Of a stretch of DNA of 9,900 nucleotides, positions 3,457-4,774 are shown in pieces. Source of the stretch: an uncultured Granulicatella sp. GTDB taxonomy: Bacteria > Bacillota > Bacilli > Lactobacillales > Aerococcaceae. The stretch is from positions 1 to 9,900 of the forward strand of contig CALIJD010000174.1 in assembly GCA_938017885.1 (NCBI GenBank), in the 5' to 3' direction. Under the pieces are notes generated by a model. It worked only from the letters and a program-made list of their open reading frames with translations. It made no database searches and was not told the DNA's origin. Positions within the stretch are counted from its first letter, which is position 1. Each line of letters starts with the position of its first letter. The translations under genes were made by a program, and so were the position numbers.

Positions 3457-4461
3457 ATGTCAAAATTAGTATTAACAAAAGGAAAATATGATCACTTAGT
3501 AAAACTTTCAAACAAAAACCATGTCATCGGTGCTTTAGCGATTGACCAACGTGGTTCATTGAAAAAAATGATTGCTGCAGGAAACCCAAATGTGAAAGGT
3601 GACGAAGGCATCATCCGCTTCAAAGAATTAATCTCTGAAGAATTAACAAAATTCTCTTCTTCAATTCTTTTAGACCCTGAATACGGTCTTCCAGCTGCAA
3701 AATTACGCCACGAAGACTGCGGACTTTTAATCTCTTACGAAAAAACTGGTTACGATGCAACAGAAATCGGCCGCTTACCAGACTTACTTCCAATCTGGTC
3801 TGCAAAACGCATTAAAGAATTAGGCGCTGACGCTGTAAAAGTTCTTTTATACTATGATATTGACGAAGATCCAGCCATCAACGACATCAAACATGCATGG
3901 GTAGAACGTGTCGGTAGCGAATGTGTGGCAGAAGATATTCCATTCTTCTTAGAAATCGTTTCTTACGAAGCAAGTGACGACGATGTGAAATCAGCTGCAT
4001 ACGCTAAAGTTAAACCTCATAAAGTAAACGACGCAATGAAAGTCTTCTCTGACCCACGTTACAACGTTGATGTATTAAAAGTAGAAGTTCCAGTAAACAT
4101 GAACTTCGTAGAAGGCTTCACTAAAGAAGGTGTTGAACCTGTGTATACTCGCGAAGAAGCGTTACGTTTATTCAAAGAACAATCTGAAATCACTCACTTA
4201 CCATTCATCTTCTTAAGTGCTGGTGTTTCTGCTGAATTATTCCAAGAAACATTACGCTTTGCAAAAGAAGCTGGTTCTACTTTCAATGGTGTGTTATGTG
4301 GTCGTGCAACATGGAAAGATTCTGTAGCTGTGTTTGCGACTGAAGGGGAAGAAGCTGGTCGTGCGTGGTTGGCAAACCAAGGACGTAAGAATATCGAAGA
4401 TCTTAATGTTGTTTTAGATGAAACTGCAACTCCATGGTTAGAGCGTGCAGAAGTAAAATAA
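3457..4461 (+). CDS. lacD: LacD, tagatose 1,6-bisphosphate aldolase
   Basis: This 334-residue class I aldolase, close to the family's usual ~326, cleaves D-tagatose-1,6-bisphosphate into DHAP and glyceraldehyde-3-phosphate. Recognisable family segments are GALAIDQRGSLKKM (25-38), LLDPEYGLPAAKL (71-83), AVKVLLYYDID (126-136) and VDVLKVEVPVNMNF (204-217). Lys208 in the last is the probable Schiff-base lysine by position, corresponding to about Lys205 of streptococcal LacD. It is the last gene of the operon and completes the GalNAc route. No tagatose-6-phosphate kinase (lacC) is present, so that step must come from elsewhere, for instance LacC or phosphofructokinase. The last codons, about 4431-4458, are also the outer end of an inverted repeat continuing to 4698, which is unusual. 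Confidence 0.93.
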   Translation: MSKLVLTKGKYDHLVKLSNKNHVIGALAIDQRGSLKKMIAAGNPNVKGDEGIIRFKELISEELTKFSSSILLDPEYGLPAAKLRHEDCGLLISYEKTGYDATEIGRLPDLLPIWSAKRIKELGADAVKVLLYYDIDEDPAINDIKHAWVERVGSECVAEDIPFFLEIVSYEASDDDVKSAAYAKVKPHKVNDAMKVFSDPRYNVDVLKVEVPVNMNFVEGFTKEGVEPVYTREEALRLFKEQSEITHLPFIFLSAGVSAELFQETLRFAKEAGSTFNGVLCGRATWKDSVAVFATEGEEAGRAWLANQGRKNIEDLNVVLDETATPWLERAEVK

Positions 4462-4474
4462 TAAACATACTAAG

Positions 4475-4493
4475 TTAAGAGCGTTGCTCTTAA
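4475..4493. repeat. Short perfect hairpin after lacD
   Basis: TTAAGAGC (4475-4482), GTT loop, GCTCTTAA (4486-4493): 8 bp, 13 bases after the lacD stop. It competes with the long-range pairing of 4478-4487 to 4662-4671, so the RNA can fold in two exclusive ways here. No T-tract follows. Confidence 0.7.
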
Positions 4494-4533
4494 ACACCTA
4501 GGATTTTCTCATACGAGTAGTAATGGCTGTTCC

Positions 4534-4624
4534 GGTCTGAGCCAAGGTCTCAGACCTCTCGAGCCTCAAACAGACTCTAGGAAATTTCATTTCCTGAGTC
4601 TGTAATTCGCATCGAGTACACTCG
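4534..4624. repeat. Three internal hairpins in the core of the inverted repeat
   Basis: Hairpin 1: GGTCTGAG (4534-4541) with CTCAGACC (4549-4556), 8 bp, 7-base loop. Hairpin 2: CAGACTC (4571-4577) with GAGTCTG (4596-4602), continued after one bulged T by AGGAAAT (4579-4585) with ATTTCCT (4589-4595), 14 bp in all. Hairpin 3: CGAG (4613-4616) with CTCG (4621-4624), weak. Enclosed by the outer arms they would give a cloverleaf-like, four-way fold. It is not a tRNA: there is no acceptor, T-loop or anticodon pattern. Confidence 0.7.
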
Positions 4625-4661
4625 CGACTACTACTCGTATAGAATCCTAGGTGTTTTTTTC

Positions 4662-4697
4662 GCAACGCTCTACTTTTTTTACTTCTTCTAACCATGG
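4662..4697. repeat. Direct repeat, copy A
   Basis: This 36-base unit runs GCAACGCTCT-AC-T7-ACTTCTTCTAACCATGG and forms the outer right arm of the inverted repeat. Copy B at 4775-4808 has the same order of bases with one fewer T and small substitutions. Read on the minus strand it contains the lacD-tail words CCATGGTTAGA and GAAGTAAAA. Confidence 0.75.
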
Positions 4698-4774
4698 ATT
4701 GTAGAGAAAGGGTGATAGACGAAGCAGGCGCTAAGACAGGAGTAGGTTCTTCGAAACCACACTGGGTGTTGTAA

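Follow-up and report, generated by a model that had tools for sequence, protein, structure and literature searches.

Inverted copies of flanking gene ends beside a dispersed, predicted cloverleaf repeat behind lacD in Granulicatella

The trailer of lacD in an uncultured Granulicatella sp. contains a member of a dispersed repeat family for which a cloverleaf fold is predicted, and the gappy inverted copy of the repeat's 5′ DNA that lies on its 3′ side probably arose from a growing strand that folded back and copied itself. We analyzed a 9,900-nt stretch of this genome (contig CALIJD010000174.1, positions 1 to 9,900; hereafter, the window) together with related genomes. The repeat family is dispersed and high in copy number, its stems covary, two related genomes carry its copies at the same sites, and its inverted flanks are gappier on the 3′ side. 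In relatives only, the same core lies within MITE-like elements, some of which have the ends of resident ISL3-family elements.

Results

The window encodes a GntR-type regulator, an AgaS-like protein, NagA, and LacD, after which comes a small convergent gene (Table 1). The 3′ end of lacD doubles as the outer left arm of an inverted repeat. An earlier note, made from the sequence of the window alone, had described blocks of pairing and a branched fold behind lacD, and both were recovered at the places it gave. The outermost block (4431-4442/4687-4698) pairs exactly over 12 bp, followed inward by 4449-4461/4674-4686 (92% pairing), 4478-4487/4662-4671 (10 bp, exact), 4492-4521/4627-4656 (77% ungapped, containing the exact CCTAGGATT/AATCCTAGG), and 4511-4527/4624-4640 (88% pairing), with exact hairpins at 4534-4541/4549-4556 and 4570-4577/4596-4603. 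The RNA fold of 4425-4705 reached −130.5 kcal/mol (z = −15.3), and none of 200 shuffles was as low. Taken by themselves, the outer arms (4395-4494 and the reverse-complemented 4654-4760) also had a local score above the maximum of their dinucleotide shuffles (Table 1). A third, small hairpin between the arms, in agreement with the note, forms at about 4608-4626 in the window's own minimum-energy fold; the consensus of 17 copies replaces this third hairpin with the P4 stem around the 4570-4603 hairpin.

Table 1. Features at and behind lacD in the window, with the evidence for each
Feature	Position	Strand	Evidence
lacD (tagatose-bisphosphate aldolase)	3457..4461	+	TIGR01232, 460.7 bits vs cut-off 432.2 (query 3454-4458); start codon at 3457 chosen by eye, open reading frame begins at 3406
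Left arm: lacD 3′ end, stop codon, and trailer	4425..4494	+	Alignment with reverse-complemented right arm; lacD tails of relatives match
Repeat-family core	4495..4653	+	Covariance model R1, 157.7 bits, not independent as the window copy is one of the 17 used to build R1
P1 closing stem	4496-4527 with 4624-4652	+	RNAalifold consensus, 17 copies
P2 hairpin (GGTCTGAG/CTCAGACC)	4534..4556	+	Repeat pairing in the window and 17-copy consensus
P4 stem enclosing P3	4558-4562 with 4612-4616	+	Consensus only; missing from the window's own minimum-energy fold
P3 hairpin	4570..4603	+	Repeat pairing in the window and 17-copy consensus
Right arm: gappy inverted copy of lacD tail and trailer	4654..4698	.	Score 40 vs null maximum 30 (2000 shuffles)
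Second right-arm copy, direct repeat of 4653-4696	about 4766..4808	.	Window repeat families D2 and D3; also in G001 and L031
Probable 3′-flank remnant of a second, B-type element	4735..4774	.	4744-4808 matches G001 and L031 beside their B-type ends
Terminator-like hairpin beside the convergent gene 4867-5184	4824..4868	.	Outside the element

We searched for further copies, as the earlier note had proposed for its reading of the structure as a repeat element, and the outcome supported that reading. In the nearest genome (G001), a sequence search returned 20 rows at E < 1e-3, of which three belonged to the orthologous lacD locus; the 17 from other places had 70-81% identity to the window's middle part, and two of them were halves of one split copy. 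An alignment of 17 copies (15 from G001, the window copy, and that of locus L031) was the basis of a covariance model with a core of 160 positions. With 150 candidates scored per genome, this model gave 84 matches in G001, 88 in G007, and 81 in G005, counts that cover part of each genome's candidates and may include a few antisense matches to the same copy. Among the candidates scored, the fragmented genome G006 gave 10 matches, and G002, G003, and G004 gave zero. Matches were found in at least 15 of the 76 genomes of the window's family and in at least 24 of the 295 genomes (11 of 75 genera) of the order, which we take to be Lactobacillales; both counts include G001 and refer to scored candidates. 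Rfam scans of the window and of the regions from its relatives gave no match to the element at the gathering score, the weak matches lying at 4786-4880, outside the core. The window stretch had no match in plasmid and phage records, nor did three elements of family f2 in plasmids. We found no prior description of the family in Rfam or the open-access literature, and no paper on Granulicatella repeats there.

Two other structured sequences were observed near copies. An Rfam match to the glmS ribozyme (L004 900-1050) lies approximately 450 nt from one G001 copy. A second hairpin-rich repeat (a GACTCACA..TGTGAGTC hairpin, then a GGCTGATT..AATCAGC hairpin) adjoins copies or lies within them in L190 (about 3300-3460), L017/L019, and L225, and in L017/L019 it falls between the halves of a split copy.

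The family consensus has four stems, in which two-sided changes preserve 42 of 51 pairs (RNAalifold, 17 copies). In these copies, 93.4% of paired cells hold a pair, compared with 72.5% after shuffling and 29-43% when the partners are slid. Among 50 distinct copies from outside the genus, in an alignment fitted to the model, 89.8% of cells were paired (control, 58.9%) and the covariation score was 0.582 versus 0.143. The loops are also conserved in sequence among copies. Compensatory changes, for which the earlier note had called, were thus found across copies, and they were found at orthologous sites as well: across 22 orthologous pairs, including that of the window, P3 and P4 together showed 48 changes that were two-sided and kept pairing, 17 one-sided and broken, 6 two-sided and broken, and 3 one-sided and kept. 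The two-sided kept and one-sided broken changes numbered 29 versus 49 in P1 and 8 versus 12 in P2 (37 versus 61 for both stems together). Core identity was below 0.77 in 8 of the 22 pairs, one of which is a partial match, and conversion by another copy may explain part of the two-sided changes at orthologous sites.

Strong covariation, a stable predicted fold, and conserved loops are what would be expected if the element were a functional RNA, namely a BOX-like structured 3′ untranslated element, terminator, or mRNA stabilizer that spreads by helping the upstream gene and whose arms are kept as RNA stems. In addition, T7 follows the stem in the window copy, and the upstream gene is co-oriented toward the element in 51 of the 68 copies with both neighbors called and points away in 17, although these open reading frame calls are crude (80 aa minimum). 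We nevertheless consider this explanation unlikely. In columns with at least 80% Watson-Crick pairs, the counts of G-U and A-C were 51 v 55, 27 v 36, and 35 v 30 in three model-fitted alignments, and 7 v 12 in the 17-copy alignment, which was not fitted to the model. This filter removes columns that are often G-U; without it, the counts were 108 v 70, 68 v 47, and 62 v 64 in the fitted alignments, which took in all matches including weak ones, and 31 v 14 over all columns of the 17-copy alignment, with G-U exceeding A-C in three of the four. The tRNA stems from the same loci, used as a control and likewise left unfiltered, gave 37 G-U v 5 A-C (31 of 39 distinct tRNA sequences, each in the register with most Watson-Crick pairs).

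Further features of the copies speak against the functional RNA. A T-run lies to the right of the core in 42 of 132 matches and an A-run to the left in 35 of 132 (G001 with the window, and G007; weak matches included). Because G-U exceeds A-C little or not at all and T-runs on the right number 42 against 35 A-runs on the left, a 3′ stabilizer, small RNA, or terminator, which the earlier note had raised, is unsupported as a general explanation. Moreover, at least five copies sit, by eye, beyond the gene's own terminator-like hairpin, the arms are gappy, and their asymmetry, described below, is unchanged where the left gene points away. Strong covariation alone is no proof of RNA function: these stems covary like those of a functional RNA, yet most of the G-U excess of the tRNA type is missing. 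G-U pairs hardly above A-C point to upkeep at the DNA level, and we infer that the stems are kept there, via hairpin-templated copying or as folded single-stranded DNA. A purely mutational account leaves the conservation of the loops unexplained.

We investigated whether inverted flanks are general by comparing the left flank of each copy with its reverse-complemented right flank. For G001, 40 regions were taken around copies among the matches listed, with one listed copy left out; 6 of 76 matches for G001 and the window were dropped as weak, partial, or antisense, leaving 70 copies, and L202, which lacks full flanks, was dropped from the local alignments and gap counts, leaving 69. For G007, 4 of 56 matches were dropped, leaving 52 copies for flank and end comparisons. 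The flanks exceeded the 99% null in 45 of the 69 and 39 of the 52 copies, where about 1% was expected, and the other 24 and 13 copies stayed under it. Flanks of the same copy paired with each other more than swapped flanks did (mean, 33.4 versus 16.0 pairs in 70 nt; 70 copies, 69 of G001 plus the window), and 32 of the 70 beat the 95% level of the swapped flanks. The reach of the arms was judged from exact 9-mers and a stricter local alignment, a cheap-gap alignment having been discarded because its null reached as far as the data. Tandem copies were dropped for the 9-mer tests, leaving 46 solo copies of the 70 and 34 in G007. Of those 46, 25 were above the 99% null, and 9-mer matches lay inside a sense gene on the left side in 17 and on the right side in 2; mean 9-mer cover exceeded the null up to a distance of about 200 nt. 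In the f2 genera and in G005, no inverted homology was seen past the element's own ends into host DNA; hence, the core alone is insufficient for flank copying.

The lacD tails of six relatives, at whose lacD loci the covariance model found no element, all fit the left arm better than the right (75 v 27 for L032, Granulicatella elegans; 17-30 v 11-21 for the others). This indicates that the left arm is the original and agrees with the proposal of the earlier note that the right arm is an inverted copy of the lacD tail. The resemblance of the right arm to an inverted lacD tail had also suggested the remnant of a lost convergent second lacD copy. This reading can practically be dismissed, since the same layout follows unrelated genes (recR, guaB, coaA, and others), and the homology seen in the clade of the window extends from the core to either side and is lost within the 200 nt or so given above. 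We rejected it on the former ground. In six copies, the upstream genes were assigned by NCBIfam to recR, IMP dehydrogenase, FakA/YloV, type I pantothenate kinase, a PotD-like protein (below cut-off), and phosphoketolase.

The two arms differ in their gaps. In G001 and the window, 696 bases in 223 gaps were missing from the right arms and 93 in 49 gaps from the left arms; in G007, the corresponding values were 711 in 233 gaps and 58 in 44 gaps. Of 45 copies, 38 lacked more bases in the right arm and 4 in the left, and 3 were equal. Divided by gene context, the summed gaps on the right and left were 61 v 13, 85 v 20, 60 v 15, and 17 v 1, and the same summed asymmetry was seen in the 13 copies with a left gene directed away from the element (11 '-E>-' copies, 2 '-E>+' copies). 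As the asymmetry, in summed counts, is found in every gene context, the polarity follows the core rather than the direction of transcription, although selective constraint on genes and promoters may be part of the reason why the left arm has fewer gaps. The persistence of the asymmetry where the left gene points away also weighs against self-primed reverse transcription, in which an mRNA ending in the element would fold, its 3′ end would prime copying back along the gene tail, and the resulting DNA would be integrated. Although the right arm is complementary to the mRNA of the upstream gene and sense orientation is common, we found no match to the reverse transcriptase family PF00078 in G001, G005, G006, or G007, and we regard such an origin as very unlikely.

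In related genomes, the elements carry MITE-like ends. The G005 copies are homogeneous, with ends GGGGCTGGGCAAAAAGTCC, and copies of family f2 carry, by eye, ends of their own; both ends of ISL3-family insertion sequences have matches in the element ends of G113 and G134, and one end has a match in those of G077 and G099. These ends would suit an ordinary MITE family, whose gene-end copies are merely tolerated by selection and whose arms are remnants of terminal inverted repeats together with chance or nested insertions. The layout of neighboring genes (26 convergent and 4 divergent among the 68 copies) would suit it too, as BOX, RUP, and SPRITE repeats are likewise enriched between convergent genes in the part of their description available to us (PMC3049150). 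However, no terminal repeat is shared by the 122 copies of the window's clade in the 70 nt next to the core, the sequence shared between these copies fading about 15-20 nt beyond it, and the arms differ from locus to locus and contain coding sequence, a pattern that the ends of a transposon leave unexplained. The ISL3 transposase also had no match in G141, G154, G174, and G195, four of the eight element-bearing f2-family genomes searched. An ordinary MITE family is thus improbable as the whole account. ISL3-type transposase frames were present in G001 (one) and G007 (two, partial), and nothing links them to the element copies. In several G005 copies (L122, L126, L130, L138, L155, L156, and L164), the sequence just outside the end reads, by eye, as part of the P3 arm of another copy, as if the G005 elements inserted into each other's P3 hairpin.

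Many copies are shared by two related genomes. An element lies at the syntenic place in G007 for 29 of 30 G001 matches and in G001 for 32 of 33 G007 matches; synteny was found for 30 of 75 G001 and 33 of 56 G007 matches, a biased sample in which the G007 regions were chosen around G007 copies. This comparison of G001 and G007 resolved no clean empty site. At guaB, inspection by eye shows two elements in G001, with an inverted guaB tail behind each of them, and one element in G007. At the lacD locus, an A-type core is common to the window and L031 (99.4% identical), a B-type core lies in G001 (C1:1858327-1858486), and L031 has, in addition, a partial core of the family. A B-type core has probably been deleted at 4735-4808 in the window's lineage, leaving its 3′ flank and the second right arm.

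L031 (NZ_JVNU01000025.1) is titled Streptococcus sp. 263_SSPC; its LacD is 98% identical to that of the window and its genus placement is the same as that of Granulicatella elegans, so the name is probably wrong. In L178, L185, L190, L194, and L196, a copy stands directly beyond a terminator-like hairpin ending TTTTTTGTGC, which may reflect an insertion preference.

Discussion

The fold-back origin of the right arm that we favor can be outlined as follows. The core would spread, or would once have spread, as a non-autonomous mobile element and settle, often near the end of a gene. When a new strand has copied the flank and the core, the hairpin of the core would snap this strand back, and the strand would copy itself outward, giving the right arm, before rejoining its template. 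Copying templated by the hairpin would, in the same way, repair the stems of the core, altering both sides at once. The right arm would then decay mainly via small deletions, perhaps owing to the instability of long perfect palindromes. If lacD mRNA is affected at all, this would be a secondary effect. The footprint of template switching, an inverted copy adjoining a hairpin and to one side of it, is present in the window's clade; among the sequences compared, no fold-back event was caught between two that differ by one event.

The family shares traits with several known systems. With Rfam-type cis-acting RNAs it has compensatory changes in common, and it differs from them in lacking both G-U pairs well above A-C and a match to a described family. 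Like MITEs, it is short, non-coding, and dispersed in many copies, and the G113 and G134 elements resemble ISL3-derived MITEs in that both ends match a resident ISL3-family element. Terminal inverted repeats are, however, found in its G005 and f2 relatives and not in the window's clade, and one conserved core occurs across elements with different ends. The bcr1 repeat of the Bacillus cereus group is dispersed, is said to fold as RNA, and has traits of a mobile element, and its likeness to the present family is one of description. The REP system is tied to a Y1 transposase in the host, and PF01797 had no match in G001 and one each in G005 and G007.

The pneumococcal BOX, RUP, and SPRITE repeats, about half of which are common to all strains, resemble the family in being short, multi-copy, structured, and intergenic, as well as in the enrichment noted above; the available part of their description makes no mention of locus-specific inverted flank copies (PMC3049150). 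By description, the family is set apart from BOX by a single P1-P4 architecture in place of boxA-boxB-boxC. Template switching provides a precedent, as far as the accessible text goes, for both the creation and the maintenance of hairpin stems: quasipalindrome mutation likewise leaves inverted copies that adjoin hairpins and alters the two sides of a stem together (PMC8794818). The events treated there are in RNA genes, whereas here a dispersed element would provoke them at many loci and mostly on one side.

More tentatively, and with somewhat less confidence than in the fold-back origin at lacD, the family might represent a new and widespread class of mobile DNA fold-back element in Lactobacillales. 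Such a class would combine one cloverleaf core with lineage-specific transposon ends, and in the Granulicatella clade it would turn replication round and write inverted copies of the gene ends nearby, the core itself dictating the polarity. A core that is common to elements with different ends and has no Rfam match makes a family worth annotating. If the fold-back origin is right, a small repeat would generate long inverted repeats at gene ends throughout the genome, and the many copies of this repeat would offer a natural series for studying how template switching, usually studied via single events, builds and repairs hairpins.
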